Assembly (NCBI GenBank): GCA_902785355.1 | Contig: CACZYF010000003.1 | Coordinates: forward strand, 60,757-124,756 | Reading direction: 5' to 3' | Source of the DNA: an uncultured Ruminococcus sp. | GTDB taxonomy: Bacteria; Bacillota; Clostridia; Oscillospirales; Acutalibacteraceae | DNA: 64,000 nucleotides | In this document: piece after piece, positions 1 to 55,069 of the stretch | Layout of the letters: the number at the start of each line of letters is the position of its first letter | How positions within the stretch are numbered: position 1 is the first letter of the stretch | Notes under the pieces: generated by a model | What the model saw: the letters and a program-made list of their open reading frames with translations, nothing else | Database searches by the model: none | What the model was told of the DNA's origin: nothing | Made by a program: the position numbers and the translations under genes

Positions 1-3000
1 CCATCAGCAAAAAAAGCATATGCGGTGTTGGTATCTCAACCCACAACCTCCTACTACCTAACCGGTTATTTGAACGGTGCATCTGTAAATACCACTGACA
101 ACAGCAGGAAGTTTACTGAGACATCAAGCGGCAGCGGCGTGTATACGCTTACATGGGCGCCGGAATCTGATCACGAGGGGTATCAGTATGCTACCATTTA
201 TACCGGCTCTACTGCTTATCACCCCGGCTCTCACCCCGGCGCGAACGGAGCTGCGGCGACTGATACTGACTCAGATCCCGGTGATGACGCAAAATGGAAG
301 GTCGGCGCGGTAGCTGGTCAAACCGTCACCTTTACGTGGGATACAAGAGGCACAAACCCGACCCTGTCTTGGACAGTCTCCGGTGGTACCGTTTCGTCCG
401 ACTGGCTGTATTCCAAAGACGGCACAACGAAGTTTACCCCTCCGACAACATCTGAGGGCACCTTCCGCTTTGTTTGGTCGACAAATGATGACGGTCCCGG
501 TAAATCCGGTACCACTGCGATCGCTACTAAGGTGGGTACAAACGCTTATTGGGCTGATATCACGTCTTATGTTAAATCAAACTCACAATTCTACTTTGCG
601 TTAGCTAATAATGACAACAATGGTGGTATCCGCGGTAATAAGCAAGAACAAATTAACGGTGAAGCCATAGCGCCGGGTTCAACCGGTACAATCTCCGGTG
701 GCGGATTTGTCGCTGAGATGAAAGAAAAAAGCACCGTTACCGGAACTGCTTATTTCCAATTGATCAGAAATGTTGATTTCACAAAGATTTCCGCTATTGG
801 CGTACTCGCCGAGTATTCCGACTCAGGTAAGGTAAACTACAAATACTACTATAAGACCGTCAGCTCCGGCGACGATCAGATCACGACCGTTAATGTTTAC
901 GCCAAGGATGGCGCGGCTCCTATCAACTGGGACAATAAGGGCGCAGGCGGCGCCAGCGCTACTACCGGTACAGCGTATAACTATGCCGCTATCGCGACCA
1001 CTACGATCACACAGATCGATGGCGCGACCCCGGAAAGCGGCGTTGTTTCCAGCGTAGCATGCGGCGACGAGAGCAGTAAATATCAGGTAGCGACGGTCGA
1101 CGCGGGCAAGAGCATCACCGTCAAGACAACAATTGCGTCAGACTACCGAAGCAAGTATTACGTAGTTGGTTGGTGTATCAACGGCGTTACCTATAAGACC
1201 GACGGTACTCCCGGTGTGAACGAGGCTTCTGATACTTCAACAGAAAACGGTGAATGTACACTGACCTACACCCTCCCGGCTGAGCCCACGGTAGATTACC
1301 TCGAGATCACCCCGATCTACTATCTCAGAAATACTACCGGTACTATCACCTTCTACCTTGAGGGTTACAACACTGTTGTCGAAAAGTGGGGCAACACGCC
1401 GTATATCTATCCGTTCTACGGCAACCTGAACAACGTCTCTAACTCCTTTGGCGTATATCCCGGTCAGCCGATGGTTTACGCAGAGGGTAAGTATTCGACC
1501 CAGATCCCGTTGAAGGATATCCCGATCATAGGTGCTTCGACCAACACCCCGATCAAGGGTATCACCATCAACAACGGTTACGCGGATCATGTTCATCGCA
1601 ATATGATCTATAAGTGGACGGATCACGATAATGATCAGGAGCATAAGCAGACCTATGACTATGACGACTTCTACAAGATCTATGAGGAATGCTTGACCAA
1701 TGCCGCCGGAGAATCGGCAGGTCATCCCAACTCCATCATCTTCCGTATTATTGATGAAACCGACACCTACAACCGCAATACTTACGGCAGTTCTGTCTCC
1801 GGCGCGCGTGTGGTGGGAACTAAGAGCTCTCTCACAACAGAAGACCTCACAAATATCAATAGCGGCAACGGCTGGGAGGTTCTCAGAAACCGTTACAATC
1901 AGCCTATCGACCTGTTTGGTAACGTTCTTCAAACCGAGCCTTCTGATCCTTCTGCTGTAGGCGACAATGTCCGCATCGTATCAACCGGTTACAACGCGAA
2001 TATCGCCGGCGACTACGGTACCGCTTGGATGGTATATAAGAAGAATGGCAGCTCCTACTCTCTGATCTCAGACGCCACCAACGGCAGATACGCCGCACCG
2101 CCCTCCATCTTCCTGCTCAGAGGTAACGCATCCGGTTATTCCACCACTATAACCTATCCGGAAGCTAACCACAGCGTCACGGGCGTCGGCACTTATACCG
2201 ACAGCATCAAGAAGTATGAGGGTATTTATAAAGCTGCTTACGCTGATAGCTCGGTAAAAGGCAAGCCCGTCTATATCACCTACGAGAAGGACGCACAGGA
2301 TACCCGTGATAACGCCGCCGGTACCGGCGCGTATCGTCTGGACGGCAGATGGTATTATACTCACTCTAATGATACAGTTAAATCGACTGTCGGTATCGAG
2401 TACTTTGATAAGGCTCAGAACAAATGGCTACCGGATACTGTATCGGAATCTACCGGTGACGGTGCATCCGGATCGATAAATAAGAATAACGTTAAATTCA
2501 ACAGCAATTCTTACAAAGATGATACTCACGTAACGACTTCAAAGGAAGCTGTCATCAACACCAACACCACCTTGAACTTCACCGCAACCGCCGGTACGGG
2601 CTACCTCTTTGACGGCTGGTACATCAAGTACAGTGCAACCTCCTACGATAAGATCGAAGGCGCGGCAGAAGCTGCCAGCATCAAGGCGACCGCAAACTAT
2701 GAGCTGATCGCGCGCTTTGTGCCGATCGTCACCGGCTCGCTGACCATCGATCATAAGCTGACTGGTTCCAGCACCGGTGAGGGAACCGTTGATATGCAGG
2801 TTCTTGTAAAGGATGGTACTACTACAAAAGCGACTTACAATGGCTCTCATATTTACATCGACGGAACCTATATCTCCAATACCTATGCTACTTACACCAT
2901 CGATGTGACCTTAAAGACGACGCCTAAGTATGACGGTACTGTGACCGCCTTCGGCTATGACAAGTTCAATACCTCTAAGAGTATTGCCGCTACGACATCT

Positions 3001-4464
3001 CCTGAGTCCTTGCCCGGTAATGAGGGGGCTCTGACTACATCACACTTCACCTTTACTGTAGGTGATTTGTATGCGGGTACTACGCTCTCTACCTCTGAGC
3101 TTACGTATTATTCGACGATTGCTGAAACGCCTCATTACTACAACTTCACCTATAACTTCACTGACAGAAGCGGCGCATCTAAGAGCTACACCGCCAAGGG
3201 TGAGATCTTACTGAAGGAATATAAGCAGTATGTCGGCGACACTGGTCACGAACTTGCAGCATCGTATATCAAGGCGAAAGCTCCCTTCGAGAGTAACTTC
3301 CTGAAAAAGAATACGCTGAATGTCGGCAATGCTACTTATAGCGATCTTGATCATACATTTACCGCAACGTCTGATTTTGCCGAAACGGTTGATCTTCCGG
3401 TGTATACAGTAAGATTCAAGCTGCCCTATGATTATTATACCGTCAAATCCGGCGATCATAAGATATACACGGCAATCGAAAGTTCTTATAATGCCGACAA
3501 GGCTACCTTCGATCTGGCTGCCCGGTATGATCAGTTCGTTACTACTGACGCGAGTGTGACAACTCCCGGTACTTCAACAAACGTCAGCAAGTCGACTGAA
3601 ACCAATCATAAAGACAACGACTTCATTACGGCGCCCGATCAGGTCGGCAACATGAACTTTGCATACTGGTCGATCAAGCGTCTCGCGGATACCGCTGATG
3701 AGCAGGCTACCGCTCCCGAGGTCGCCCGGATCTACTACCCCGACTTCCATTATCGTATTTACGGCGACTATTATGTTGAGGCTGTATTCTCTGATGAAGA
3801 TACGAATAGCTGGCATAATACCTATTCCGATACCAACAACAGCGGTTGCTCCATCCTGTACGTCGGCGACAGCCGCAACCAGTGGAACGATGGTGCAGGC
3901 ACCACCGATGATGATGCAACTAAAGCTGCGGATATGCTTTATAACGACTTTATCTTCAATTACAGAAATAACGGCGCTGAGCTGAAGAACAGCAGCAATG
4001 TCAAGATCGGTATGATCATCGAGCGTGTTGCAGATAGAAGTTCGTCTCCTGCAAAATGGGCTATGGGCTCTGCCGATGTATCTGATATGAGCTACTACGA
4101 GACCGTTAATTACGGTGAAAATGTATCATCTGTCAAGAACGCTATACTGACTGCTTTGAATGGTAAAGATTCAGCTGCAGCAATCAGCCGCGGCGGTTGT
4201 ATCGGCTTTGACTGGAATACCTCTAAATTGAACAACAAGAACAATCTTGAGGAAAATTATCCGGTATACAGCGCGTACGGTCAGACTGTCGGCGATAACT
4301 CGATTGAGTTTAAGAATGACAGTGCAATCGACAATTATGTTTACAGAGCTTACGCGGTAATGAAGTATGACTCAAATAAGGACGGTACGCTTGATACATG
4401 GTGTATCAGTGATCCTGCTTACTTCTGTATGAGATATACTGCTAACCTCAAATACAGCGAATAA
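1..4464 (+). CDS. Giant secreted repeat protein, 5' end outside window (cassette A, gene 1)
   Basis: The frame is open to base 1 (the GTG at 25 is not a convincing start), so the N-terminus and any signal peptide lie outside; at least 1,487 residues are present. The protein is Thr/Ser/Gly/Asn/Tyr rich. Beta-rich segments (YLTGYLNG near the start, FYLEGYN about residue 450) resemble starch-binding or Ig-like modules, but I cannot assign a family. An InlB-type repeat (FDGWYIKY) lies near residue 870. The last ~400 residues, from YNFTYNFTDRSG through APFESNF, FAYW and DSRNQW to a terminal tail, match the end of the 39100-45012 protein in order and spacing. There is no LPXTG motif or C-terminal membrane helix, so attachment would be non-sortase. 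The stop is followed after 18 nt by a small peptide gene and then an LRR/dockerin gene. Extracellular location is inferred; function unknown. Confidence 0.85.
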   Translation, partial: PSAKKAYAVLVSQPTTSYYLTGYLNGASVNTTDNSRKFTETSSGSGVYTLTWAPESDHEGYQYATIYTGSTAYHPGSHPGANGAAATDTDSDPGDDAKWKVGAVAGQTVTFTWDTRGTNPTLSWTVSGGTVSSDWLYSKDGTTKFTPPTTSEGTFRFVWSTNDDGPGKSGTTAIATKVGTNAYWADITSYVKSNSQFYFALANNDNNGGIRGNKQEQINGEAIAPGSTGTISGGGFVAEMKEKSTVTGTAYFQLIRNVDFTKISAIGVLAEYSDSGKVNYKYYYKTVSSGDDQITTVNVYAKDGAAPINWDNKGAGGASATTGTAYNYAAIATTTITQIDGATPESGVVSSVACGDESSKYQVATVDAGKSITVKTTIASDYRSKYYVVGWCINGVTYKTDGTPGVNEASDTSTENGECTLTYTLPAEPTVDYLEITPIYYLRNTTGTITFYLEGYNTVVEKWGNTPYIYPFYGNLNNVSNSFGVYPGQPMVYAEGKYSTQIPLKDIPIIGASTNTPIKGITINNGYADHVHRNMIYKWTDHDNDQEHKQTYDYDDFYKIYEECLTNAAGESAGHPNSIIFRIIDETDTYNRNTYGSSVSGARVVGTKSSLTTEDLTNINSGNGWEVLRNRYNQPIDLFGNVLQTEPSDPSAVGDNVRIVSTGYNANIAGDYGTAWMVYKKNGSSYSLISDATNGRYAAPPSIFLLRGNASGYSTTITYPEANHSVTGVGTYTDSIKKYEGIYKAAYADSSVKGKPVYITYEKDAQDTRDNAAGTGAYRLDGRWYYTHSNDTVKSTVGIEYFDKAQNKWLPDTVSESTGDGASGSINKNNVKFNSNSYKDDTHVTTSKEAVINTNTTLNFTATAGTGYLFDGWYIKYSATSYDKIEGAAEAASIKATANYELIARFVPIVTGSLTIDHKLTGSSTGEGTVDMQVLVKDGTTTKATYNGSHIYIDGTYISNTYATYTIDVTLKTTPKYDGTVTAFGYDKFNTSKSIAATTSPESLPGNEGALTTSHFTFTVGDLYAGTTLSTSELTYYSTIAETPHYYNFTYNFTDRSGASKSYTAKGEILLKEYKQYVGDTGHELAASYIKAKAPFESNFLKKNTLNVGNATYSDLDHTFTATSDFAETVDLPVYTVRFKLPYDYYTVKSGDHKIYTAIESSYNADKATFDLAARYDQFVTTDASVTTPGTSTNVSKSTETNHKDNDFITAPDQVGNMNFAYWSIKRLADTADEQATAPEVARIYYPDFHYRIYGDYYVEAVFSDEDTNSWHNTYSDTNNSGCSILYVGDSRNQWNDGAGTTDDDATKAADMLYNDFIFNYRNNGAELKNSSNVKIGMIIERVADRSSSPAKWAMGSADVSDMSYYETVNYGENVSSVKNAILTALNGKDSAAAISRGGCIGFDWNTSKLNNKNNLEENYPVYSAYGQTVGDNSIEFKNDSAIDNYVYRAYAVMKYDSNKDGTLDTWCISDPAYFCMRYTANLKYSE

Positions 4465-4482
4465 CAGAAAGGGTTGATGAAA

Positions 4483-4641
4483 ATGAAAAAAAACTATTCT
4501 TCACCTGAACTGGAATTGATCAATTTAGCTATCTCTAAGGATGTTTTGGCTGTCAGCGATCCCATGGAGACGACACCTGTGGGTGAAGGCGTTAACCCTG
4601 CCAATCCTGGATCCGATCCCTTCGGTGATCTTATTCCTTAA
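4483..4641 (+). CDS. Small peptide with YxxPELEL motif (cassette A, gene 2)
   Basis: A 52-residue product starting MKKNYSSPELEL and ending DPFGDLIP. AGAAAGGG at 4466-4473 sits 9 nt before the ATG at 4483; an in-frame ATG at 4477 is too close to it. It has no signal peptide, membrane segment or cysteine. It lies 18 nt after the giant gene and 66 nt before the LRR/dockerin gene, so is probably cotranscribed. It aligns with the 54-aa product at 38869-39033, which occupies the same place in a second cassette: Y-x2-P-x-LEL near the N-terminus, then DV and S about ten residues later, and a GDL-x-P segment in the acidic C-terminal half. Y-x2-P resembles the recognition motif of some RiPP leaders (lasso peptides), but no modification enzymes are near. 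Function unknown. Confidence 0.75.
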   Translation: MKKNYSSPELELINLAISKDVLAVSDPMETTPVGEGVNPANPGSDPFGDLIP

Positions 4642-4660
4642 ATTAACATTATTCAACTTC

Positions 4661-4685
4661 GCAGGCGGTATTCTTTACCGCCTGC
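4661..4685 (+). promoter_or_regulatory. Perfect hairpin between peptide and LRR/dockerin genes
   Basis: A 10-bp perfect stem (GCAGGCGGTA / TACCGCCTGC) with a 5-nt loop, 22 nt before the next start codon. No T-run follows, so it is not a classic terminator; partial read-through control or an RNA processing/stability site is possible. The ribosome site of the next gene (AAGGA, 4694-4698) lies just after it. Confidence 0.6.
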
Positions 4686-4707
4686 GCCTATATAAGGACT
4701 CAGCAAT

Positions 4708-5709
4708 ATGAAAATATCGATTAAACTCTTAGTATCTCTGATATTAGTATTGTCTTTATTAACAGTGACGGCGACGACCTTTTTCGCGGAAACGATCTTC
4801 ACATCCGGCGATTTCTCCTACACATTAATGAACGACAACTATATCTCGTTGTATGATTGGGAGGGCGGTTCCGACACTTTGACGATACCTAACTCTCTTG
4901 ATTATTATTATGTCAGAGAAATCAGAAACAGATGCTTTATCAATCGTAATGATTTTACTTCACTGGACTTGGAAAAGGCAAATTACCTGAATCGTATCGG
5001 CTTGAATGCATTCAAGGGTTCTGCTCTTTCAGGTGAGTTGAGCGTTCCTGCGCAAATCAAAACCGTAGCGTCCGGCGCTTTTGAGAACTGTGATAGTATC
5101 GAGGTTTTGTATTATAACGCAATGGCGCCTGTGGTTTCGTCACAATGCTTCTATGACTGTGATTCACTCAGAGAAGTATATTTGACAGATGGCGTTACTA
5201 CCATTGAAAATCACGCGTTTTCAAGCTGTGACAGCCTTACGATCTTCAGGATCCCCGATACGGTAACTTCGATATCATCTGTTGCGTTTGAGGATTGCCC
5301 CAATCTCGTCATCTACTGCTACACCGATTCTGCGGCGCATCAATTTGCTGAGAGTAACGGGATCGAATATGTGTTGATCGACGCTCCCGAGCCGACGGAG
5401 CCGGTAACGGAGCCGACCGAAGCGCCTACCGAGCCTGTGACCGAGACCCCCGAGCCGACCGAAGCTGTTACGGAACAGCCGACGGAGGCCGTGAGGCTCC
5501 TTCTCGGTGATGCTGACGGCGACGGGATGGTGGACGTTACCGACGCGACTGTCATCCAGCGCGTACTGAATTACATCGACGTTTCTTCCTATAATGAGAA
5601 CGCCGCCGATGTAAACCGCAGCGGTGATGTTGAGATCATCGACGCGACCTACATCATGCGGTACTCCGCTCTGCTCACTGTCCCCTACCCCATCGGCGAA
5701 TGGATCTGA
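4708..5709 (+). CDS. Secreted LRR_5 (BspA-type) protein with C-terminal dockerin-like module (cassette A, gene 3)
   Basis: 333 residues. An N-terminal signal peptide (hydrophobic stretch about 7-25, ending near TFFAE) directs export. Residues ~60-220 hold BspA-type LRR_5 repeats (GAFENCDSIEVL, CFYDCDSLREV, AFSSCDSLTIF), a fold known for protein or matrix binding. A linker of repeated PTEP/PTEA units (~228-262) follows, then a dockerin-like module: GDADGDGMVDVTDATVIQR and a second calcium loop DVNRSGDVEIIDATYIMR. Dockerins bind cohesins, so the protein may dock on a cell-surface or cellulosome-like scaffold; no cohesin is seen in this window. AAGGA precedes the ATG by 9 nt. The gene has the same architecture as 37914-38855, its counterpart in the second cassette. 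A strong terminator follows. Confidence 0.9.
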   Translation: MKISIKLLVSLILVLSLLTVTATTFFAETIFTSGDFSYTLMNDNYISLYDWEGGSDTLTIPNSLDYYYVREIRNRCFINRNDFTSLDLEKANYLNRIGLNAFKGSALSGELSVPAQIKTVASGAFENCDSIEVLYYNAMAPVVSSQCFYDCDSLREVYLTDGVTTIENHAFSSCDSLTIFRIPDTVTSISSVAFEDCPNLVIYCYTDSAAHQFAESNGIEYVLIDAPEPTEPVTEPTEAPTEPVTETPEPTEAVTEQPTEAVRLLLGDADGDGMVDVTDATVIQRVLNYIDVSSYNENAADVNRSGDVEIIDATYIMRYSALLTVPYPIGEWI

Positions 5710-5758: not shown

Positions 5759-5795
5759 AAAATGCCGCGTTTGCATTATGCAAGCGCGGCATTTT
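5759..5795. terminator. Bidirectional terminator after cassette A
   Basis: A 17-bp stem with one G-U pair and a 3-nt loop (AAAATGCCGCG... / ...CGCGGCATTTT). A-rich left and T-rich right arms let it work on either strand. It ends the cassette transcript about 50 nt after the stop. Confidence 0.85.
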
Positions 5796-37861: not shown

Positions 37862-37897
37862 AAAAAGGTTGCCGTAAATCCATTCTTTACGGCAACC
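37862..37897 (-). terminator. Terminator of cassette B
   Basis: Perfect 12-bp stem (GGTTGCCGTAAA / TTTACGGCAACC), 7-nt loop, followed on the minus strand by TTTTTC, 17 nt after the LRR/dockerin stop. Confidence 0.9.
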
Positions 37898-37913
37898 CAT
37901 GATCTCTAAATAT

Positions 37914-38855
37914 TCAAATTTGATTAGTCGGCAGCAAATAGTAGCTGTAGCTCTCAGTTTCACCAATATGGTACCGGTCATAGAAGTCGGCCAGATACCG
38001 TTGAATCATTGTTGCGTCGGTTATATTCAAGCCATCCTTATCAACATCTGCGGCCGTCTCATTAAATACAAATACAGGGATATCGGCAAGCCGTCTCTGA
38101 ATCAGCGTCACATCGAGTATCGACACTGCTTCATCGCAGTCGGCGTCTCCGATCATATAGGTGACCGTGATCGGTTCCGCGTCGGTGAGAACAAATGAAA
38201 TATCATTATCCAGCGCATATGATAAAGCGTAGCTTTTCGTTGTACAATAGATCACAAGATCATCACAGCCGTCAAAAGCATTGGCGGCGATTTTCTCCAC
38301 CGTATCGGGAATCTCGATGGCGGTCAGTCCGGAGCAGTTCATAAATGCCCTCTCTCCGATCTCGACGATCGACTCCGGCAGAGCAATCTGTTTCAGAGAA
38401 GTACATCCCCAAAAGCATTGATCGGGAATTTGTGTGATTCCGCCTTTGATCTCCAGTTCTTCCAAAGAAGTACAATTCTGAAAAGCGCCGAACGATAAGG
38501 CTTCAATCTGCTCCGGTATCGTCAGAGAAGTCAGATTGCGGCAGCCGTAAAAGGCGTTGACTCCGATGGTTTTCAATGCCGCCGCTTCATCAAAGGATAC
38601 TGACGAGATGATTGCGTCATTAAAGAACGCATAGTCGTCTATCGCTGTGACGTCAGCGCCCATCAGCTTCTGCGGTATCACTACATCCGGCGAGCGGTCG
38701 TCATAGCTGTGGATGACCGCTTCCCCATCCGTATTGATATCGAAAGCAAAACCGTAGAGCACAATATAGTTTTCAGCTGCTTTAGCAACCTGCATCACAG
38801 CGCAAAGCAGAATGCCGACAAGAATGAAAGAACAGAGCTTTTTCAAGTGTTTCAT
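37914..38855 (-). CDS. Secreted LRR_5 (BspA-type) protein with C-terminal dockerin-like module (cassette B, gene 3)
   Basis: 313 residues from the ATG at 38855 with GGAGG seven nt upstream; an earlier in-frame start would run into the peptide gene. Signal peptide MKHLKKLCSFILVGILLCAV. LRR_5 repeats at ~45-215 (AFYGCRNLTSL, AFQNCTSLEEL, CFWGCTSLKQI, AFMNCSGLTAI, AFDGCDDLVIY). A dockerin-like pair follows without a PTEP linker: GDADCDEAVSILDVTLIQR and DVDKDGLNITDATMIQR. In the first calcium loop a Cys replaces a usual Gly/Asn-type residue. Same layout and gene position as 4708-5709. Probably cell-surface docked; partner unknown. Confidence 0.9.
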   Translation of the reverse strand: MKHLKKLCSFILVGILLCAVMQVAKAAENYIVLYGFAFDINTDGEAVIHSYDDRSPDVVIPQKLMGADVTAIDDYAFFNDAIISSVSFDEAAALKTIGVNAFYGCRNLTSLTIPEQIEALSFGAFQNCTSLEELEIKGGITQIPDQCFWGCTSLKQIALPESIVEIGERAFMNCSGLTAIEIPDTVEKIAANAFDGCDDLVIYCTTKSYALSYALDNDISFVLTDAEPITVTYMIGDADCDEAVSILDVTLIQRRLADIPVFVFNETAADVDKDGLNITDATMIQRYLADFYDRYHIGETESYSYYLLPTNQI

Positions 38856-38868
38856 CAAATTGCCTCCG

Positions 38869-39033
38869 TTACCATTCGATATCATCATCGGGATCGGTGG
38901 GATCCAGATCACCCCAGTCATCGTTGCCGCCGTCCAGATAGTTGTTGAGATTCTCGGGGCTGCCCAAGATCACATCCTGCAATCTGAAAGAAACCAATTC
39001 CAGGTCAGGAACACAGTATTCTTTTTTGTCCAT
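38869..39033 (-). CDS. Small acidic peptide with YxxPDLEL motif (cassette B, gene 2)
   Basis: 54 residues, MDKKEYCVPDLELVSF to DPDDDIEW, from the ATG at 39033 with GAGGGG six nt upstream. Matches the 52-aa product at 4483-4641: Y-x2-P-x-LEL, then DV-x2-x-S, and a WGDLDP segment aligned with FGDLIP. Strongly acidic second half; one Cys; no signal peptide or membrane helix. It lies 66 nt after the giant gene, and its stop is only 13 nt before the next start. Conservation of place and motif in two cassettes argues that it is a real gene. Function unknown. Confidence 0.78.
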   Translation of the reverse strand: MDKKEYCVPDLELVSFRLQDVILGSPENLNNYLDGGNDDWGDLDPTDPDDDIEW

Positions 39034-39099: not shown

Positions 39100-42000
39100 T
39101 TATCCGTTATTTGTTCTCGATACGATTCCGTTATCGATCGCCAGATTTTTGTCAGCCTCCGCCGCAAGACATATGTACACCGCGTTGCTCAGCGTGACCT
39201 CGCCGTTCTTGACAAGATAGGCGGTCGCCTTCAGCAGGTATCGGGCGTTGATATATGTCTTTTCCTCGTTCACATACTTATAGGTGTTGCGGTAGCTCTT
39301 GCCGTACTGCACGCGGTCGTGATTCGTCAGCGACGACTGTGGGATCTCGCTGATTTGCAGGCTGCGCAGCTTATTCGGTTTATCGGGATTATAATTGTAG
39401 GTCGCAGCGTTACTCAGGATCGCTTCCTTGAGGTTATTCTCGTTCGACACCAGACCGTAATCCTTCCCGGGTTCAAAGGTTTTTCCCGCCGGAAGCGTCG
39501 CGCACAACTCAAAGACTACGCCGGTACGGTAGGTGCCTTCGGCAGCATTGTAAATAAAATCCTCGGTACCTTCGTCAAACGCGATCTCGAAGTCGGTGTA
39601 GAGAATGTCGGTAGAGCCGCTTTGCGGCACTTCGTTGTTTTCATTCGTCCATGTGTTGCGCGTATCGTCGATATGGGTCAGCTTGATGACGGGCTCCGCT
39701 TCATGGTCGGCTGTCTCGGACGCGCTGTAAACCGGCGTGATCCAGTAGGTATCCATCATGCACAGATCAAACAGCGTATCGTAGCTTTTGGCTACAACGG
39801 AGCCGGCCTCGGTCTTTCGAACCTCCCAATACGCGAAGGACATGCCTTCATACGTCTCGGGACATACGATGTCGAGCATATTCTCCGATTGCTTATAATT
39901 GGAACCGTAGGGAATCGAAATAGTCTGATATTCTCCGATGGGCGTCGTACGGAAATTAGCGAAGACATTCTTCTTGGACTGGACCGCGTTCACGTCGGTA
40001 ACGATCCTGTCAACGGAGCCCTCCGTACCGTCGCCCTTTACGGAATTTTTGATAACATAATCGGGATGATCCGTCCAGTTCAGCACCTCGGCAAAGTTGC
40101 TCTCATAGGGGGCGTTCGCAAGAATGAACTCGTCGGTCAGCGCGTAGAAGCCGTCCGTTGTGATCTTTGGGTTCTCACTCTTCTCGTTCAGATCGTCGCC
40201 GGTCAGCGTACCTTTTTTAACATAAGTCTTTTCTTCGCCGGTGCGGGAGAGGAAGTTGTAGTTGAGCGTATAGGGCAGCTCGGTGACCTCTCTGCGGGCA
40301 TAGACAGCGATCAAATGCTGATTTTTTGTTCTTGATAACTGACTTGCCAGTGAATCCGGTGACCATTCGCCGCCGTTCCAGTTGTGCTTGGGGATCAGGT
40401 CGTTATTCTGCGCCTCGTCGATCTCCCACCACTCGGCAAACTCATATTTATAGACGCGGTTATCAACGTCCTTCATATGCAGCGAGTAGCCGTCGTTTTT
40501 ATGCCAGGCGATCTGCGTATGGTTTTGATACAAGCTGGGACTGTCGAAGATAACATCCTTTCCGCCGTATTCACCGCTCGTCTTTAGCTCGTTATTATCG
40601 ATCTTCTGCTGTAAGTACGCTTTCATCTGTTCATCAGACAGAGCGTACATCTGAGTCTTCGTATAATCATCGCAGAAGTAGAAATCAACGTCCATCTGAA
40701 CCATTTCCTGCTTTACGAGCGCGTAATACTTCACATCTCTGTCGGGAAGGCTGCCGTTGGTACCCAGCGCCTCTTTCGACAGTGTCTTATTTGTAGTCAG
40801 GAGATTCTCAGAGGGATTATTCTCGTTATAATCCGGTGAGGAATACCAGCCGAGGAAGGTATATTTATGAAGGTGAAGATCGACCTCTTGATTTCCCACG
40901 GTGATTTTATCATCATTCGTATCATAGAACGTGACGCTTTGGATCTGATCGTAGCTCTCGACCGTCTGGCGGTTCACGGACAGTCTGCCGAAGAGCGGAT
41001 CGCCAGTCGCTTCGTCATAGTCCGTCTCGCCGTTATCGTTGACGCAGATCATTCGATAGTTCAGGTCGCGTTCGATATCCTTGCGGTAATAGATCTTGAT
41101 ATGATTGACGAGCGAACCGTCGGGAGCAGGCTGGATGTTGATCTTGACGTCGTTCAGTGTTCCGTCGGCGTTCGTCAGGCGGGTATATGCCGTCACCGTG
41201 CCGTCAGTCGGGTTAGTATAGCTGTAATCGGTGGGTACGCCCAGCGTCACGGTAGCGCCTACGGGAGCCATGCCCGCGTTCGGGAAGGTCGCAAGAACAC
41301 CGTTCCACATATTCACGCGCTCCGACTCACTCGCCTGTTCGTAGGCTTTGGCGGCGGTGTGGTCGACATATTCGTAGGAATAGGAGTAGTACCTGCGGTC
41401 AAAGTACAGACGGATCGTCTTTTTATCCGTATCAACGATCGTAACACTGCCGTTATCGTCGACAGGGATCGGGTTCTCGCTCACGGAGCCGTCGTGTGCA
41501 ATATAAGTATATTCCGCCTTGCCCGGCGCGCGTTCAAAGCCGTCGGCTATGATCTGCTGCGGGATAGGACGCGCGAAAATATCGTTGATCGCAACGGTGG
41601 TGTCGCCCTGCGCGGCAATCGGGATATCTAAGGATTCCGACGCGAAGAGCGAGTAGCCGTCGCCGTCAAGATCATGTGTGTAATACTCTGTCTCGTAGAT
41701 ATATTCGGTAGTATTCTTGTGATAGAGGAAGGTGATGACGTTGTTCCTCAGCTCCTCCGCCTTTTGCTCTTCGGGCGTCGCGGCGGTCGAAGCGGAGAGG
41801 ATCAGCGTTGCCGAAGAGGGATCGGCGACATATCCGGGGATGACTCTGGCGTCCTCCTTGACGGAAGCGTGGGAGGTGATCTTCTCAATATCATGACCCT
41901 CGCTGTTGATCGGTTTGCTTGTGTCCGCATCGAGATAGCGGACGCGGTAATGCACCTTGTCCTTCTGAATATACTCAAAGGTATATTCGTTCGGGTGGTA

Positions 42001-45000
42001 CTCTTCGCCCTCTTCATTCGCTTTAATGATGATCGAATGAGAGTTGACGGTCGGCCACCAGTTGGTGCCTTCGTCCTCGTGCTCCTCCGTCCACTTGTAA
42101 TCACCGCTCAGCTCGTCGCCCGATTTCGCGTGGAAGGTACGGGTCTTCCAGACGTATGCTCGGCCGACGGTCGGGGGAGCGACCTCTACGGTCGGGTCGT
42201 CGGCGCGGACATAGCTGACCTTGTATTTTGCGACGTCCTGCGTGACCCATTCGGCAAAGAGCCTGAGCTTAGCGTTGTCGCCGGTCGACTCGGCGTTCAG
42301 CGCGGTGACAGGAACGTTCTCCGGCTCAAAACGCCGCGGAACACGGTTTCGGATATAGTACCAGCCGGCAAAGGAAGCCTTATCGGCGATCGGGGTCAGC
42401 TCGGGTCTATTGCTTTCTCCGTCATGTACGTCGGCGGGGATGTGGTTTAGCGGTACATAAGAGCCGTACTCTACCGTCCAGTCGGTGATGGGGTTATTCT
42501 CCTCATCATAGCCCAGCACAATGCGATTTGTATCCTCATAGTATTCGTTGTAGTTGTTATAGAATACGACGTTGATCTTCTTGGGCGTCCATTTGGCGTA
42601 GAGGGTGAGGTCGGTATCCGGCATATTCAGAGTAGAGAAATCGACCTTGCGGAAGTAATAGGGCGTATAATACCAGCCGTCAAAGGTGAAGTAGTCCGCA
42701 CGCTCGGGCGGGTTGTTAAAGGTCGGGGTATACTCCTTATCTGCAAGCGGTCTGCCGTAGAATACGTTCTCTTCTACCTTATCGGTCATGTTGTTGTTAA
42801 CGAAGCGGATGTTGTGCTCATTTCTTCGATAGAAGTATCGGATGTTGCAATGGTGGTTGGCGTCAAAGGTATAATCGGCAGCACCGTCGCCGTCATAATC
42901 AAATGGTTTTTCTACCCATTCGCATTTTGGATTCGGTCCGAAGCCCGCCGCCGCAGCCTGCGCGTCTGTCATCAGTGTAAAGCCGATCAGTGCCGTCGCG
43001 GTTTGCTGCGCTTTAACCTGTGAATCTCTTGTATTCTTATCACTATAACTGCCGCCCGCATCAAAGGTTTCAATGGCATTTTTAGGGAGCAAACCGTATA
43101 TCTTTCCTGTGTTCTCGTTCTTATAGGTATCGATATATCCGCCCTGACCGTTCCAGTTTCCGTTCTCGTCGTATTCAATACGCAGTAGCTCGGTATAATT
43201 CAAATACGTGAAATTATATACCTGATTTTTCTTATTCCAACTGGCTTGCTTCACATTTGTCCAGAACGCAAGGTAGTTGAGTACATACGGATCAACCTCG
43301 CTGTGATTTTTGAGGTATTGTTCTTCATAGAGTAGCTGTGTATCGAGCTTTTCGTAGATACCCTTTACGGTTTTGTTAGATCTTCTTGCGTAAGGTGTGC
43401 CCCATTCAACCGACCATGCACCGAAACGCGCGTAGTCGTTTGCACCTTCGCTGTTATATTCGACAAGTATAGGGTCAAGTGCATCTAAGAACCAGTTGCT
43501 GCGCAAATTAGCGGCGTATTTGGTTTTTAGTTCATAATAATAGTAGGTCGCTTGATTATAGGCAGAGTAATAGGTCTTGACTTCAAGCTTATCGGCGTAT
43601 TTCTCAGCGATCTGCGGGAGCGAATTTGTCGCTCTCGTCCAAGGAGTGCTGCCTCCTCCGCAGCTTGTGGAAAGATGTTGATCAAAAGAACCATATCCTG
43701 ACGAAAACGCCTTTGTCGAACCGGCGAGTTGAATTAGTCCGTCGTCAGTCTGTCTCGCATAGTAGAAGCGCTGGGTGATCTCCTTGCGGTCATAGAAAAT
43801 GCTGATTCGTGAAGTGCCATCGCCCTTGATAGCCATCTGACGGTTTTCGTCGAACTGATTTTCATAGGTTTGGGTCTTTTCCGCATTAAACTCAAAGTAC
43901 CTGCCCATGCCGTTTAGCTCGGTGATCTGGTCGTCGCTCATCTCGGGGAATTCTGTGGCAAGATTATACTTGAAGAAGCCGTAATTCGCAACGATATCGT
44001 CATACGAGACCTTCGTTCCTGACGGAACGTCATTGATCTCCTTTGCCGCGATAACGGTGTAATCCTCGTCGTCCGGATTCTCGATCCAGTAAATGATACG
44101 GTAGCGGGTGGTGTCCTCGCTCCAGATCGCTTTATAATAAGTATTCTTCGCGGGAATCGTCTGATCGCCCTCGAGGGTCAGCAGGTTTTCGGGCGCAGTA
44201 GCAACTTCCTCGCTGATGACGTTTCCGTTTTCGTCAATATAATGCCAGTCGGCGCCCTCAACGGCGGAGTCGATATCCGTACGCGCCCAGCCGCGGAAGG
44301 TGTAGCCCAGCCGTTTCGGCTCGTCGACATGATAGACGGTCTGGTACTTCGCGTAGATCGGCTCTACGCCGTAGCCGCCCTCGCCGAGATCAAAGCCGAC
44401 GGTGTAGTAGTTGCGGTCATAGTAGAGTCTGAACACGGTGGAGCCGTCGGCGGCGATCGCGTCCGGCTCGTGGAACAGGGATGTGAAGCCCTCGACCTCT
44501 ACATTCTCAAGATGATCGGGGAAGCTGCCGGTCACGCCCAGCAGATCCTGATACTGCGCATTGAGGGTCTGGTCGGTCGTATAGAGGTCGTCATAGACGT
44601 TTTGCAGATAATAGCGCGCTCTGTAATGCGACAGACCCGCAAGATAATAGACCGTGTAGGTCACATTATGCTCAAGCGTATCAATATGGACCGCTGTCGT
44701 TTTAGCCAACACTCCGTTTTCGGGAAGCGCCCGGGGATCTGTCTCGCCCTCGTTCAGCATCATGGGGTCGTAGCCGCTGACGTCGGGATTCGTGACCGTA
44801 ACGTCGACCGCATGACCGGCAGGGAAGGTCGCGATGTACGGATCGTGCGCATGGGTACCGTCTACATAAAGATAGTTGACACGAACGGTATAGTAGCTAT
44901 CGGCGCCGATATAAGCAGCGGTAAGGTCAAGCAAGAGCGTCACCATAAGGATGATACTGACCAGCTTGATCAAATACTTCCGTGTCGATCGGTTCGTTCT

Positions 45001-45012
45001 GTTATTATCCAT
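39100..45012 (-). CDS. Giant secreted InlB-type repeat protein (cassette B, gene 1)
   Basis: 1,970 residues, GGAGG upstream of the ATG. A basic N-terminus and signal helix (~13-36, KLVSIILMVTLLLDL). Residues ~190-1450 contain many InlB/Flg_new-type units with the hallmark GYTFRGWA, FDGWYYTPYYF, FAGWYYIRN, FLGWYSSPDY, each followed by a YxAxW strand; these form beta-grasp domains typical of adhesins. MucBP-like stretches (VRYLDADTSKPI) lie near 1035-1100. The last ~400 residues (YNFLSRTGEEKTY, APYESNF, FAYWEV, DTRNTW, LYTDFEIAF) match the end of the 1-4464 product. No LPXTG, no terminal helix. Extracellular; likely adhesive, role inferred. Confidence 0.9.
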   Translation of the reverse strand: MDNNRTNRSTRKYLIKLVSIILMVTLLLDLTAAYIGADSYYTVRVNYLYVDGTHAHDPYIATFPAGHAVDVTVTNPDVSGYDPMMLNEGETDPRALPENGVLAKTTAVHIDTLEHNVTYTVYYLAGLSHYRARYYLQNVYDDLYTTDQTLNAQYQDLLGVTGSFPDHLENVEVEGFTSLFHEPDAIAADGSTVFRLYYDRNYYTVGFDLGEGGYGVEPIYAKYQTVYHVDEPKRLGYTFRGWARTDIDSAVEGADWHYIDENGNVISEEVATAPENLLTLEGDQTIPAKNTYYKAIWSEDTTRYRIIYWIENPDDEDYTVIAAKEINDVPSGTKVSYDDIVANYGFFKYNLATEFPEMSDDQITELNGMGRYFEFNAEKTQTYENQFDENRQMAIKGDGTSRISIFYDRKEITQRFYYARQTDDGLIQLAGSTKAFSSGYGSFDQHLSTSCGGGSTPWTRATNSLPQIAEKYADKLEVKTYYSAYNQATYYYYELKTKYAANLRSNWFLDALDPILVEYNSEGANDYARFGAWSVEWGTPYARRSNKTVKGIYEKLDTQLLYEEQYLKNHSEVDPYVLNYLAFWTNVKQASWNKKNQVYNFTYLNYTELLRIEYDENGNWNGQGGYIDTYKNENTGKIYGLLPKNAIETFDAGGSYSDKNTRDSQVKAQQTATALIGFTLMTDAQAAAAGFGPNPKCEWVEKPFDYDGDGAADYTFDANHHCNIRYFYRRNEHNIRFVNNNMTDKVEENVFYGRPLADKEYTPTFNNPPERADYFTFDGWYYTPYYFRKVDFSTLNMPDTDLTLYAKWTPKKINVVFYNNYNEYYEDTNRIVLGYDEENNPITDWTVEYGSYVPLNHIPADVHDGESNRPELTPIADKASFAGWYYIRNRVPRRFEPENVPVTALNAESTGDNAKLRLFAEWVTQDVAKYKVSYVRADDPTVEVAPPTVGRAYVWKTRTFHAKSGDELSGDYKWTEEHEDEGTNWWPTVNSHSIIIKANEEGEEYHPNEYTFEYIQKDKVHYRVRYLDADTSKPINSEGHDIEKITSHASVKEDARVIPGYVADPSSATLILSASTAATPEEQKAEELRNNVITFLYHKNTTEYIYETEYYTHDLDGDGYSLFASESLDIPIAAQGDTTVAINDIFARPIPQQIIADGFERAPGKAEYTYIAHDGSVSENPIPVDDNGSVTIVDTDKKTIRLYFDRRYYSYSYEYVDHTAAKAYEQASESERVNMWNGVLATFPNAGMAPVGATVTLGVPTDYSYTNPTDGTVTAYTRLTNADGTLNDVKINIQPAPDGSLVNHIKIYYRKDIERDLNYRMICVNDNGETDYDEATGDPLFGRLSVNRQTVESYDQIQSVTFYDTNDDKITVGNQEVDLHLHKYTFLGWYSSPDYNENNPSENLLTTNKTLSKEALGTNGSLPDRDVKYYALVKQEMVQMDVDFYFCDDYTKTQMYALSDEQMKAYLQQKIDNNELKTSGEYGGKDVIFDSPSLYQNHTQIAWHKNDGYSLHMKDVDNRVYKYEFAEWWEIDEAQNNDLIPKHNWNGGEWSPDSLASQLSRTKNQHLIAVYARREVTELPYTLNYNFLSRTGEEKTYVKKGTLTGDDLNEKSENPKITTDGFYALTDEFILANAPYESNFAEVLNWTDHPDYVIKNSVKGDGTEGSVDRIVTDVNAVQSKKNVFANFRTTPIGEYQTISIPYGSNYKQSENMLDIVCPETYEGMSFAYWEVRKTEAGSVVAKSYDTLFDLCMMDTYWITPVYSASETADHEAEPVIKLTHIDDTRNTWTNENNEVPQSGSTDILYTDFEIAFDEGTEDFIYNAAEGTYRTGVVFELCATLPAGKTFEPGKDYGLVSNENNLKEAILSNAATYNYNPDKPNKLRSLQISEIPQSSLTNHDRVQYGKSYRNTYKYVNEEKTYINARYLLKATAYLVKNGEVTLSNAVYICLAAEADKNLAIDNGIVSRTNNG

Positions 45013-46899: not shown

Positions 46900-49800
46900 T
46901 CAGGGCGTCTGCTCTTCCTTAGGCGGCTGTACCGGCAGTGCCATGGAGCTCACCTGATTGAAGCTGCACATACAGCCCCCGTAATAGGTATTCTTCTTGT
47001 AGGTATTATAGAAAACTCTCAGCTTTCCGTTCGCGTCATAGTAGCGGATATACGATCTTGCGTCGAGCTTCTCCGCCTTTTTGGAAGCGGAATCGCCCTC
47101 ATAGGTAACGACAAGCGTATATAATCTGTAATCGGCAAAGTTGCGGTGATCCTTGGCGATTTGTCCGGTACCCTTGGTGCAGTTGACGTTGGTGATATAA
47201 CGGAAATCGGTATCGGCGCCTCTACTTATGCCCGTGGTATCCTTGCCGTTGACGTTTTCTCCCTGATATTGCAGTGTGTACGCGGCGGTATCCTCAATAT
47301 TGTAGTGAGCGATAAACGCATTGATATTGGCTTCGGTACCTACCGCGTAGCCATATTCCACGTTAACTTTACCCTCGGGTGTGATGACCTCCTGAGATGA
47401 AAGCGCGTCAATACTGCTCAGGAGTTCTTCGCTCAGCGAGGTGATGAATCTCAGACCGCCGGGAGTTTCTTCCGTATAGTTTTCATCGTACATCTGAGGA
47501 TCGCGAATCTGAACGCCCGCTAAACCGAAGCCGCGGTAGCCGCTGATGATATTCGTATCCTCGTCAGACTTCGCGACCGTTCCTACCTTGATCCACTTCG
47601 CGTAGAGATGGTAATCGGAGTCTCGCTCGGCAAAACTATCGTTTTCGAAGTTCGACGCTGTGTCGGCAGCGCTGTCGGGTGTATCACATTCGGAATAATC
47701 ATTGTTATGATACCATCCGGCAAAGACGTACTCGTCGCCTGCCCACTCGGGAATATCGTAGAAATGGGTAACCTTCCCTTCGGAAAGATCCATAGGCTCA
47801 TAAATGCGGAAGACCTTTTGGATTTCGTCAGCCGTGCCGCCGGGCTTGTTCTCGTGGAAGATGACCTTATAAGCAGGCTCGTCGACCATCTTGACGTAGT
47901 TGACGGGCTCGCCGTTCACATAGATGATACCCTCGACGTCGATGGTGAACGGGATATCCGCAGCGAGCTTGTAGCCGCTGTTCACGGGGACGGCGGACTC
48001 GTGAAGAATATACTCACCCGGCGCGATATCGAAGTGGCTGACCTCGGTTGAAGAGGTGAACGAGGTATCATCGTATGTAGTCTCGTCGTTTTTAAGCGTC
48101 ATCGGGGTTGCGCCGTCTTCTTTCAGATTGCCCTGCTCATCACAGTTTGTATCGTTTTTCTCGTAGATCTCGAGGGTCGCACCTGCAAGCGGCTCATCCT
48201 TGGCGTTGACCTTCAGAATCTTCGCCTTTACGCCGGTTACAGTATGATAGGTCTTGTTGCTGGCGATGTTAGAATACGGAACGCCGTTGATAGAGGTGAT
48301 CTTCGCCTCGTTGGAGATAGGCGTGCCTTTTTCCAATCCGACCTTGACCGGGATCGTGATCTCTACGGTATCGCCGGGATTGAGCACGTCGACCGTCGCG
48401 GTAAATAGGCGCACATCCTCGTTATTGTCATTCTTGACCGTCTCGATGGAATAAGTAACGCGGGCGGTATTGTCGATCGGAATGGTCGCGCCGTCATTGA
48501 ATTTGACCGTATAATAGTTATTCGGCGAGAGCGCCATGGGGAACTTATCCTCGATCACGATATTTGTCATCGGGAGCTCGGGGTCGGGATTGGTCACGGT
48601 GAGGATATAGTCCATGACGCTGCCGTTAACGACGCTCTCGGGCTTATCCTGTGTGCCGGATGCCGGGAAAGCGGATTTGATGAACTGCGGCTTTGTAAAG
48701 CGGAGCGTGACGCTGGTGAGGGTGTTCATGACAAGATTTTTGCCGATTTCCTGATTGAAGCCCTTCACGACAGCCTCGTTGTAGGTCTCGATCTCGCTCC
48801 TTGATTCGTTGTCGGGGGACAGCATATTGATCGTGAGATCGACACCCTTCTTAACGCCGAGGACAAAGTCCTTTCCGCTGTCGGTCTTGCGGCAGTCAAC
48901 GGCGACCGCGGTGACGCTCGTAATATCAGCGGGAGGAGTCGTTGACCAGATATCCGTTCGTGTAAGATCGAACATCTCCTTGGTGAATTCGTTCTTGGGC
49001 TTTGTCGCGTAATAGACGACAGGAGCGCATTTTCCGTCGTTCGGATCAGCGCTGGACTGGTTTCTGATACTGCTGATATCAACGGATTGGAATTTACCCA
49101 ACCACTGGAAATCGCTGCCGTCGATCTGTCTTTCGATGACGTCATAAATTACGAGCTCCTTCGTCTGGGTCGACGTATTGCCCTCATAAGAGATGTTGTA
49201 AGAATAGCCGGTGTTAAGACCCACGACCTGGTGCTTAGCGATATCCGCGCCCTCGGTCATTACGTTGGAATCCGCGCCGTACTGGTAAACGTTCGGGGTT
49301 TTCAGCGTGGTCGTGCTGTAGTTGTAGGCGGTCTGCTCGTTATCAACGTGATCAAAGAGACGTCTGGTAGCGCTATCGAGATAGTTCTTTGTATTGATCC
49401 TATTCTCCGGCTTGCTCTGATCCTCCGTCGTATCGGTAAAGGCAACATAATTCTTGGGAGTTGTGCCGTTGATATGCAGGTTGTTGATCGTCGTCTTGCA
49501 CTTATAGTAGACGACAAAGCCGGTCGCTGTCATGTCCTCCGGACAGTTGATGTTGATGATCATCATCGTCTGGCCGGAGCCCTCCCAGTTGTCCTTGAAG
49601 GTCACGGAGTAATAGTCAGAGGAGATCTGTCCGGGGAATTCTGTTGCTTTCACGCCGTAGCTGGTAGCGTTAGCGGACGACTTCTGGCTGTTGATCGTAG
49701 TGCTGCCGCGCTTTCTCGCCTGTTCATCCGTACGGCCGCAGACGATGATCTTGCTTCTGTCTACTATAAAGCCGTGCGGCAGAAGATCGTGGAAAATACC

Positions 49801-52800
49801 GGACTTGACGCGCTTGATGTAGCCGAGCTGGTTCTTGCTGTACGCCCAGCCGGTGATCGCGACCGGGAACTCGACCGTAGAGGCTACGGAGTCGGTCACA
49901 AAATACTTTTGGGGATCGGTGATGGTTGTTTCATTCAGGCAGCTCTTCGCCGCGTAAAGCTCGCTCTCGCTCAGCGTCAACTCATAAGCGCTCAGCCATG
50001 CGTCATGATCCGTAGAATCGGCGGTGATGTCAGTCTTGCCCTCACGCTGAACTGTCATCAGGCTCTTGTTTTTAATCAGCGTATGTCTGCCGGCATTGGC
50101 GTGGGTGGAAACGAGAGAATGGATCTTTCTGGTGTTTTTCAGCTTGAGGCCGGTATTGACCTTGATATCCGTGGTGTAGCGGCTCGAGGTATATTCCACC
50201 TTGTAGCCGACGGTATCACCGGGGAGGACTACTCTGGCTTCGTAGCCTTTCTCAAAATCAGAGCCGGACTCCGTGCTGATGCCCATTTCATCATGGGTAA
50301 TGGTTTTCAGCAGCTCAAAATTACTTGAGCCCATCGTTCTGTAATATACCTTGATATCTCCGTAATCATAGAGGTTATCGTTTTCGTAAGGATTTGCCCA
50401 GTCGCCGTTTAGATTAACGGAATCATACTCGGTTACGTTGATATCGAGGTAAGTAAAGTAATAGTCGCCGTCGTCGAGTGTATCCTGATTATTCGCCTTG
50501 ATCCATTTACTGCGGGTATTGGCGCCGGTCGGCTTTTCGGCGGTGACTATGACGTCGCCTCTGTCCTTTACGCCATCTGTGAGAACATAGGTTCGCGGCG
50601 TAACGCTCATTTCTCCCGCATTCGTCCAATTCGGATTATCCTGATTCGTTTTTTCTGTATAGGAAAGGCGGTAAATGAACAGCGCAATGTTATTTGCGTC
50701 GTTGTTAAGGATCAGATCCTGACCTCCATACACATAATGAGCCTCCTGATTATACTCATCAGGAATCGTTTTCGAAAGAGTGCGGACATCTCCGGTAATA
50801 ATCTCACCAACATAAGCGCTGGCAACTCCGGTCGTTCTGAACTGCTGTTCAAAGCCTGATTTCCACTTGACATTCAGGATCGCTTCGTTTTTGACCTCAG
50901 CCCACGTGCCCTGCGCCATGGCTTCGTCACGGCGGTGCTTTGTAACGACCGTAAGGCGGTGAATTTCGTCTTTGGTAAATTCAGATGACCATTTATCCAG
51001 ACCGTTTGAATATACGACAGAGCCGTCGTGGACGGTGTTCTCGGTCCATTTCAGCTGATAAGGCTGATTGCTGTTGAAGTTGCTCGCGTTCAGCGTCCAT
51101 ACGACATAGAAGTACTCGTCAGCGTCGGAGGGTCTCTCTCCCCAACTGTCGCTCCAGCTCAGGGTCGCGCTCGCCTGCTCCTTATATACGGAGGTTTGCA
51201 CGTCCGTATGCAGCTCTACTTTGAGATTTCTCTCTTGGAAGGTGACATATTCATTATTGTCGTTTTTCAGCTCGATCTTGACATTGAATTCCTTGTTGAA
51301 ATATTTTTGGCACACGCCGTTCTCATCGACATAGCCGCCCGGTACCTCCATCGGGTCGACGGTATAGACAGGCTCGAGGACGGTGCTCTTGAACGTGGTC
51401 GCGTTCGTCAAGATATAGTATTCTCCGTTATCGGAGGTTTCTACATCAAAATTCGTGAAGGTGCTCTCGGTCGTCGTCTTATCGGTCGAACCGTCCCAGC
51501 CGGTAAAGAACTTTTTAGGCAGAGTGATTCTTACAGAGCCTGCCGGAAGCTGGTTGTTCTGGTTTTCCAGCGCAAAATCCACCGTCAGGTGAGCCGAGAT
51601 ATTACCGCTTGCCGAGGGATGGAACACAAGGGTGTCGCCGAGGTTAGTGACGTCGTTGCCCGACAGTGTACCCCAGCGGATCATGGAATTGTAGTTATCG
51701 GATGATATGCGGTTATCTACCCAGTTTGCGTAATAGGTCACGTCGCCGGTGATTTGGGTAGCCGTCGTGAGCTTGTCGCCGCCGCCGTTTTTCTCGGTGT
51801 ACCAGCCGTCAAAGGACTTCTTGACAATGGTCGCGCCGCCCGATTGTTCGATATAGTTCGCGCCGGGCAGATAGGTCAGGGTCTTGCCGTCGGCGACGGT
51901 ATAGGTCGTGCTGCCGACCATCTCGCCGTCGGTGGGGTCAAAGGTCACCTTATGACTCTCCGCCGTCCAGTGGGCGGTCAGCGTCAACGTATCGGGAGCG
52001 TTTGAATCCAAACGGCTTTGATAGGTGTATTTATTATTCTGACTGTCATACCAGCCGTCAAAGCGGTAGCCCGCTCTGGTCGGGGCGGGGAGCTCGCCGA
52101 TGATGTTTTGATCGTCTTCGCTTTTACTCTTGTAGACCTTGATGGTCTTGTTCTGTGTAGCGCCGTCGTTATAGTCGAGCGTGATCGTGCAGATCGGGTT
52201 CAGACTCCAGTGCGCCTTGAACACAGAATTTACAGATAAGTTTACCTCTTGGTTATTACTGTTTTTCGTGTCGGTATCGCCGATATACCAGCCGTCAAAG
52301 GTATAATTCTTTCTTTCTACCACCGGCAGGGTGCCGAGGTTATATAAAGAGCTGCTTTGAACGGGATAGTTCGGATTGGCATAATGCGTGCCGTCAGAAT
52401 CCTCGTACTTAATATACGAGCCGCCGTTGGTCTCGAACCTCGGCTGCCAGCCCCAGTGAGCGTGGTAGGTCACGTCGCCGGTGACCTTGGTAGCGGAGGT
52501 GATCTCCGTTCCGCCTTCCGCTTTGGTAAACCAGCCCATAAACGCCTGGTTGCCGTTGACCGGGGTCGGGATCGTGCCGATCGCGTGATCGTAGTCGCAG
52601 ACCTTTACATAGGTGCTCTCATTGTCGATCGTGCCGCCATGCAAGTCAAAGGTAACGTCGGGCTTTTTCTGCCAATAGGCGTGGAGCGTTGTGCTCAGCG
52701 AAACATAGGCGGTCTCGGTGTTGGGATCGGTCTCGTGAGTGACGACCTTTTTGCCGTAACCGTTCGGTAACGTGTACCATCCCATGAAGGTATAGCCGTC

Positions 52801-54942: not shown

Positions 54943-55069
54943 TTTTACCACACCTATCACCCACTGCATAATTATAGATATTATCATTATACAGAAAATC
55001 CGCGTCCGATACAATCGACCGATATGCCAAATATCTTGCAGATTTTTAGTGATTTCATACAAAGAAAGA

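Follow-up and report, generated by a model that had tools for sequence, protein, structure and literature searches.

A cassette of three genes lies twice in the stretch of uncultured Ruminococcus sp. DNA considered here: a gene for a giant secreted protein, a small peptide gene of 52-54 codons, and a gene for a protein with leucine-rich repeats (LRR) and a dockerin domain. The stretch, called the window, spans 64,000 nucleotides (C3:60757-124756); the draft genome it comes from has 2.23 Mb in 73 contigs. Copy B, at 1-5709 (+), and copy C, at 45012-37914 (-), stand where an earlier note had placed them. We favor, with moderate confidence, the view that the small gene encodes the precursor of a linear ribosomally synthesized and post-translationally modified peptide (RiPP), similar to the linear polyphosphorylated peptides (LPPs) and produced alongside a secreted surface protein. 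That is, we read it as a precursor dependent on a RiPP recognition element (RRE), in which the leader is conserved and the acidic tail varies.

The LPP class was described by Popov and co-workers in May 2026 (PMC13381572), and is defined by an RRE, a peptidase resembling signal peptidase I (SpI), an HprK-like kinase, a nucleoside triphosphate (NTP) transferase and an MsbA-like transporter. What is shown there includes phosphorylation of Ser in the core, RRE-dependent cleavage of the leader, and the Ser/His/Asp residues of the peptidase; the biological role is stated to be unknown. Capsule loci are mentioned in that paper, whose main text contains neither ‘surface’ nor ‘Ruminococcus’. The LPP leader reads YxxPxVLxHQxIxFETxxS, and its first part, YxxPx[LVIFA], is given as the motif through which both lasso and LPP leaders dock (PMC13381572).

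Peptide B (4483-4641, +; a second in-frame ATG lies at 4477) has a leader with YSSPELEL and an acidic tail; peptide C (38869-39033, -) has YCVPDLEL and again an acidic tail. They match each other at E 9e-5 in a single comparison, the common part being the leader, and match the A3 peptide profile, in whose building both were used, at E 2.4e-16 and 2.4e-14. From 55 peptides, chosen and anchored by YxxP after two false pattern matches (window 60928; L076 1896) had been discarded, the consensus is Y-x-S-P-[ED]-[FLI]-[ED]-[IL]-[VI]-x-F-x-[LF]-x-D-[VI]-[IL]-x-x-S. Mean identity among 68 unique peptides is 0.355 in the leader (about 0.25 once the anchoring Tyr and Pro are taken out) versus 0.108 in the tail; the tails are Cys-free, and acidic in all but one (67/68). 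A Ser falls at Y+17 to Y+21 in 65/69 peptides, as against 29/69 and 24/69 for the next two windows of positions. The ratio of nonsynonymous to synonymous change (pN/pS), taken from nine close pairs (four sequences account for six of these), is 0.26, with 0.16 for the leader versus 0.36 for the tail. The small open reading frames (ORFs), for which the earlier note had asked whether conservation or codon selection might be lacking, are therefore coding genes.

The tail has one further peculiarity, seen outside the genus. At two loci (L193, 8186-8302 and 8341-9402, -; L194, 4330-5290, +) the peptide and the secreted protein encoded upstream share a C-terminal tail: GWSDWWTPEF with GWSDWWTPEY in one pair, ELPIIPV with ELPIITV in the other. 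In L193, 38 of 48 bases are equal and several of the changes are synonymous, so that the protein sequence seems to have been kept. The resemblance would fit a peptide that mimics a built-in tail or competes with one. This is no general rule: a score of at least 35 was reached by 2/1116 real pairs (L193 and L194) and 0/1284 random ones, and a score of at least 25 by 12 of each; 30 further 3-kb loci, partly from the same genomes, gave none above 21. The two cases stand among 108 unique peptides compared. A pair of another kind is found on contig C63 of the present genome (L014 423-1305, -), where a dockerin-like protein adjoins a Ser/Lys-rich protein; one carries DPYELPFIPSH and the other ends in KYELPFIPD. 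This pair lies downstream of a second PqqD gene with an S26-NTP_transf_5 fusion.

The genes that could process such a precursor lie outside the window. The stretch directly upstream (L006) holds a further cassette, copy A, on the strand opposite to copy B, with its peptide at L006 7975-7817. After it come genes for a PqqD-type RRE (L006 6421-6158; C3:50.2 kb), an S26/signal-peptidase-like protein of 155-172 amino acids (aa) depending on the start, an HPrK-like protein of 223 aa, and an ATP-binding cassette (ABC) exporter. With copy D, on contig C43 (L083), the order giant, peptide of about 52 aa, LRR_5(/dockerin) protein occurs in at least four copies in this genome, and several precursors are probably served in trans. 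The RRE matches PF05402 (PqqD) at E 1.3e-16; among NCBIfam models the lasso PqqD chaperones come first, at 6.9e-9 and under the cut-off. For the peptidase the best NCBIfam model is the archaeal-type signal peptidase I (TIGR02228, E 0.0019, under the cut-off), and a Pfam scan gave zero matches; S26-like relatives reach PF00717 above the cut-off in L014 and below it in L187. Inspection by eye finds the Ser/His/Asp boxes in 12/12 S26-like peptidases, an automatic pattern having overlooked two of the His. The ABC protein has ABC_membrane and ABC_tran domains; NCBIfam puts MsbA first, level with a type I secretion model, both under the cut-off. There is no NTP transferase among the proteins of this cluster scanned with Pfam; PF14907 is found in L014, as the fusion, and in L082, L189 and L191. 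The other two PqqD genes of the genome each have a leader-like small ORF nearby, weak to the peptide profile (E 0.012 and 0.28).

Many loci (L006 1-2458; L105, L107, L114, L131 and others) show similar genes around the RRE module, coding for about 210, 403 and 642 aa and compared elsewhere by length only; in L006 they resemble, by eye, aconitase, isocitrate dehydrogenase and Rex. Their recurrence suggests a fixed chromosomal site.

The RRE also has relatives among solved structures. An RRE profile compared with leader-bound RREs matched TbiB1 (1.5e-10), TfuB1 (1.3e-7), PbaB1 (1.9e-6) and LppB (9x8z, 4e-6), the lasso RREs scoring higher; structures 9x90 and 9x8z are as named in PMC13381572. An Asp is invariant in 20/20 RREs, and a nearly invariant Phe follows four residues later. 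Both align with residues of LppB that, by their spacing, are the Asp contacting the leader Tyr and the Phe contacting the leader Pro (PMC13381572).

Peptide and module also keep company across genomes, a data base of drafts with short contigs. Peptides were found (E 0.01) in 50 of 200 genomes of the family, and PqqD and HPrK-like genes (E 0.001) in 50/50 of these; the 150 family genomes without the peptide have PqqD in 74 and an HPrK-like gene in 48 (Fisher 3e-13 and 6e-20, values that ignore shared ancestry and so overstate the case). Within the genus, presence by itself is uninformative, with PqqD in 99/100 genomes. Proximity says more: of 150 listed PqqD matches 114 were used, and 17/114 have one of 117 peptide matches no more than 3 kb away, where 0.42 were expected. 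PqqD is present in 13/40 loci chosen by best peptide matches.

The second line of evidence is the recurrence of the cassette. A profile of three peptides has matches in 74/100 genus genomes at E <=0.01, and in 92/100 at the lax E <=1. Three sets of loci were compared: 40 neighbourhoods of the best peptide matches (one being the genome's own C43), 20 of weaker matches, and 35 anchored on the HPrK-like protein, 15 of whose contigs were already in the first two sets. These held 45 peptides in 39/40 loci, 17 in 16/20 and 22 in 22/35; many contigs are cut, and loci lacking a peptide were not scored as failures. A cassette was counted if, on the same strand, the peptide was immediately preceded by a gene of at least 900 aa (or by one running off the contig) and immediately followed by an LRR gene. 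Both neighbours were present for 35/45, 8/17 and 17/22 peptides (6/7 when only the new peptide loci of the third set are taken), as against 0/308 other genes in the first two sets. The order giant, peptide, LRR is not chance. The proposal that the cassette is a repeated unit is borne out; recent duplication, tried as an explanation, is ruled out, the copies being far diverged and the order recurring across the genus. A profile of the giants' C-terminal region, built partly from these very proteins, matches the gene upstream of the peptide in 36/45, 7/17 and 19/22 cases. It finds four copies in this genome and matches in 12/200 family genomes, strong only within the genus. Both profiles were made from the genus itself (A3 from 48/55 peptides, A4 from 36/46 C-terminal regions).

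Twenty loci of other genera were selected, 16 for a peptide near HPrK/PqqD matches and four as strong peptide matches, so that counts of gene order are biased; 10/20 have the order peptide, HPrK, PqqD, S26, some with an ABC or radical SAM gene interposed. The upstream gene, examined in 19, was in all 19 on the same strand as the peptide and close to it, and its product had an N-terminal hydrophobic stretch in 15/15 cases with the start present. Within the genus too, some peptides of the weaker set stand behind other secreted proteins (amylase-like, GLUG, or LRR). One locus (L091 9245-10054, +) has a gene with a cohesin domain (PF00963, barely above the cut-off) after the peptide, in the usual position of the LRR gene.

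The HPrK-like protein marks off a clade within Ruminococcus. In a tree, 33 sequences without a P-loop are set apart by a single branch (support 100/100), and DDKP is lost in 33/33; the P-loop is kept in 20/20 others (eight from the same genus, 12 from other genera). Left out of the tree were 4/16 proteins of other genera: L198 and L199, which have a P-loop by pattern, and L201 and L202, which by pattern have none. Across 32 of the dead proteins 42 positions are invariant. The name itself is based on the P-loop and NDDKP of active relatives and, weakly, on PF07475, matched by L189 at E 0.0036; the Pfam HPrK models left 7/8 of the HPrK-like proteins scanned unmatched, and a sequence search of solved structures returned nothing relevant. 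The genome also has a stand-alone HPrK-like gene with P-loop and NDDKP intact (L207 7623-8339, -; contig C13); a scan of the 16-kb stretch around it turned up neither an RRE nor a credible peptide. An association of leader type with the state of the kinase (F.F[DE] in 6/7 peptides beside active same-genus HPrKs, 0/62 others) was not used, since 7/8 of those active HPrKs are one lineage.

How the parts might work together can be sketched from homology and gene association as far as the third step. The YxxPxLE leader would add a beta strand to the PqqD-type RRE at C3:50.2 kb, which would serve several cassettes in trans (motif, RRE homology and gene association point this way); the S26-like protein, its Ser/His/Asp in place, would cut near the D-[VI]-[IL]-x-x-S junction, as its homology to LppS suggests; and the ABC protein may then export the acidic tail. 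In this clade the HPrK-like protein, having lost P-loop and NDDKP, is probably kept as a scaffold; phosphorylation of the junction Ser would either have been lost or be performed by the intact stand-alone HPrK on C13. Finally, the peptide would act outside the cell, on or with the adjoining giant and LRR/dockerin protein; in a surface complex it could be a ligand, a linker or an assembly factor. The fuller form of this idea holds that one RiPP pathway builds or tunes part of a surface machine: each giant, or its LRR/dockerin partner, would be bound extracellularly by its own acidic peptide, processed through the RRE and exported, one RRE and peptidase would serve many, and the Ruminococcus HPrK would be a dead scaffold. 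We put this fuller form forward only tentatively; odds of about one in three seem fair to it.

Several observations weigh against the LPP-like reading or parts of it. The modification that defines LPPs requires an active kinase, and the HPrK of the C3 module is without an active site. The distribution of the junction Ser speaks against its being a phospho-acceptor: it is present in 25/25 peptides beside dead HPrKs and in 36/37 with no HPrK in the locus, versus only 4/7 beside active HPrKs of the same genus. The HQ and FET positions of the LPP leader were not seen, by eye, among the 55 peptides. Taken singly, the genome's own RRE finds lasso RREs (E 0.001-0.002); LppB is not among its matches at E <=1. 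Cassettes B and C have no RRE alongside, so that service in trans is an assumption. In the weaker set 6/17 peptides lack a giant or cut gene directly upstream; a dockerin is present in only 17/36, 5/8 and 13/17 LRR neighbours of the three sets; and at five loci (L057, L079, L115, L118 and L120) PqqD comes after the peptide and an LRR gene is missing. Comparison by hhalign of the giants' C-terminal region with the upstream proteins of other genera gave no link (probability 8.8 and 0.1). The action outside the cell, which we infer from the coupling, has gene order as its one ground.

Set beside the LPP cluster of Paenibacillus alginolyticus (lppAKBSDN; PMC13381572), the module shares a discrete RRE, an SpI/SipW-like peptidase with Ser/His/Asp, an HprK-like protein and an MsbA-like exporter, as well as a YxxP leader followed by a variable C-terminus; an NTP transferase is found in some loci, and there is no lasso B2. 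The likeness of the peptidase to LppS is judged from weak family matches and the Ser/His/Asp boxes. Unlike the LPP cluster as described there, the precursors here lie behind giant secreted proteins and with LRR/dockerin genes, the Ruminococcus-clade HPrK is without a P-loop, the HQ and FET positions are missing, and several cassettes lie away from the RRE. The module would thus work like the LPP pathway, and we call it LPP-like and make no claim of strict membership. What is new relative to the LPP description is the coupling to giant and LRR genes, the several precursors per genome, and a Ruminococcus clade whose HPrK is P-loop-less yet conserved. With lasso clusters of the paeninodin type (RRE B1, B2, C, HPrK-type kinase, NTP transferase, ABC) it shares the RRE fold, the leader logic, and the HPrK-like and NTP-transferase accessories; unlike them it has no B2, and the Pfam scan of its neighbours showed no cyclase (no whole-genome cyclase search was made). 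The leader Tyr, moreover, is Trp in paeninodins (PMC13381572). The two large partners have the domains of BspA-type LRR_5/dockerin proteins and of giants with List_Bact/InlB repeats; unlike such proteins elsewhere, they are here coupled to an RRE-type precursor. The literature search, in which most subscription journals lay outside, found no paper describing this coupling. The earlier note knew of no described system of this makeup, and as far as the literature was searched this holds for the three-gene cassette; the processing module outside the window does match one, the LPPs.

A second perspective supposes that the RiPP is RRE-processed, exported and active by itself, be it as a toxin or as a signal; its regulation would be all that the giant and LRR genes share with it. 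RiPPs are commonly exported bioactives, the tails vary fast, and related modules include radical SAM genes and Cys-bearing peptides (L194, L202). The peptide, however, mostly lies directly behind a gene for a secreted protein, often by 8-40 nt, and does so in other genera too (19/20 loci, those with upstream genes seen); the giant/LRR pair, moreover, recurs with the peptide in paralogous copies. We give this explanation a lesser but real share, something like one chance in five. The radical SAM genes (PF04055) themselves, at L194 6196-7542 and L202 8957-10099, lie inside a peptide-HPrK-PqqD module, and there represent a further RiPP variant.

The peptide could also be a cytosolic chaperone, or a translation or secretion factor, for the giant, its link to the RRE being incidental. 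It is small and acidic, and the short gap to the giant's stop codon suggests coupled translation. This is rather unlikely: the leader is of the YxxP kind that RREs read and is better conserved than the tail, PqqD and HPrK co-occur with the peptide completely, and genes for RRE, peptidase, HPrK-like protein and exporter go with it. The chaperone among the roles first suggested (chaperone, signal or cargo) thus finds no support, while signal or cargo stays possible.

Less likely still is a decaying LPP cluster, its kinase dead and its pathway out of use. P-loop and DDKP are indeed lost from all 33 pseudo-HPrKs of the tree; yet the dead protein keeps its 42 invariant positions, the peptides are under purifying selection, the peptidase retains Ser/His/Asp, and an intact HPrK is found elsewhere in the genome. 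A true lasso cluster, with cyclase and B2 protease located elsewhere, is very improbable: leader and RRE do resemble lasso B1 systems (TbiB1 being the best match of the RRE profile), but B2, whose absence disfavors a lasso peptide, is unmatched as PF13471 in this genome and matched in only 10/100 genus genomes at E 0.001, with one above the cut-off (26.2 bits).

The LPP-like reading takes the remaining cassette parts as the surface partners. Giant B enters the window as an open ORF (3' part, 1-4464, +); its 5' end lies upstream, in L006 from 15735, with an N-terminus that looks like a signal peptide by eye, and the Pfam scan of the part in the window matched zero families. Giant C (39100-45012, -) has 1970 aa, a signal-peptide-like N-terminus, again by eye, and List_Bact repeats (PF09479, E 1.5e-11). 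The two are alignable over only about 290 residues near the C-terminus (23% identity, E 1e-6). The conserved C-terminal region, common by alignments and profile to most giants preceding peptides, was taken as 380 aa (3322-4461, + in B; 39103-40242, - in C). The LRR proteins, at 35% identity (E 6e-53), are clearly homologous; all three members correspond between copies, much diverged, as had been noted. LRR_5 and Dockerin_1 exceed the Pfam cut-off in both: protein B (4708-5709, +; signal-peptide-like N-terminus by eye) at E 2.6e-25 and 5.7e-10, protein C (37914-38855, -) at 9.2e-35 and 9.5e-8, scored on a longer ORF. The start of the latter was corrected from 38921, which overlaps the peptide, to the ATG at 38855, because this lies 13 nt past the peptide stop, behind a GGAGG box.

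Of two details in the earlier note, the 66-nt gaps are real in both copies but fall in different places (peptide to LRR in B, giant to peptide in C), and since gaps vary across the genus they are a coincidence. Hairpins do follow both LRR genes, as it had said of terminators: the pattern scan calls only that of C, an intrinsic terminator at 37866-37898 (-; -21.7 kcal/mol, z -4.6). The strong hairpin after B (5759-5795, +; -28.9 kcal/mol for the stretch, z -4.7) is terminator-like with a short U-run, of only four and inside the stem, and drew no call. At 46900-55062 (-) the window has one more giant (2720 aa; List_Bact and Liste_lipo_26 repeats), next to which the scan for peptides gave no match.

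In these gut Ruminococcus, the neighbours of the peptide gene suggest, in one genome after another, what such peptides may be for. The question of the role of LPPs becomes directly testable: does the peptide bind or mature the adjoining surface protein? The P-loop-less branch is a natural kinase-dead case for asking what phosphorylation serves, and the YxxP-type motif offers a handle on many small genes that are easily overlooked in annotation.

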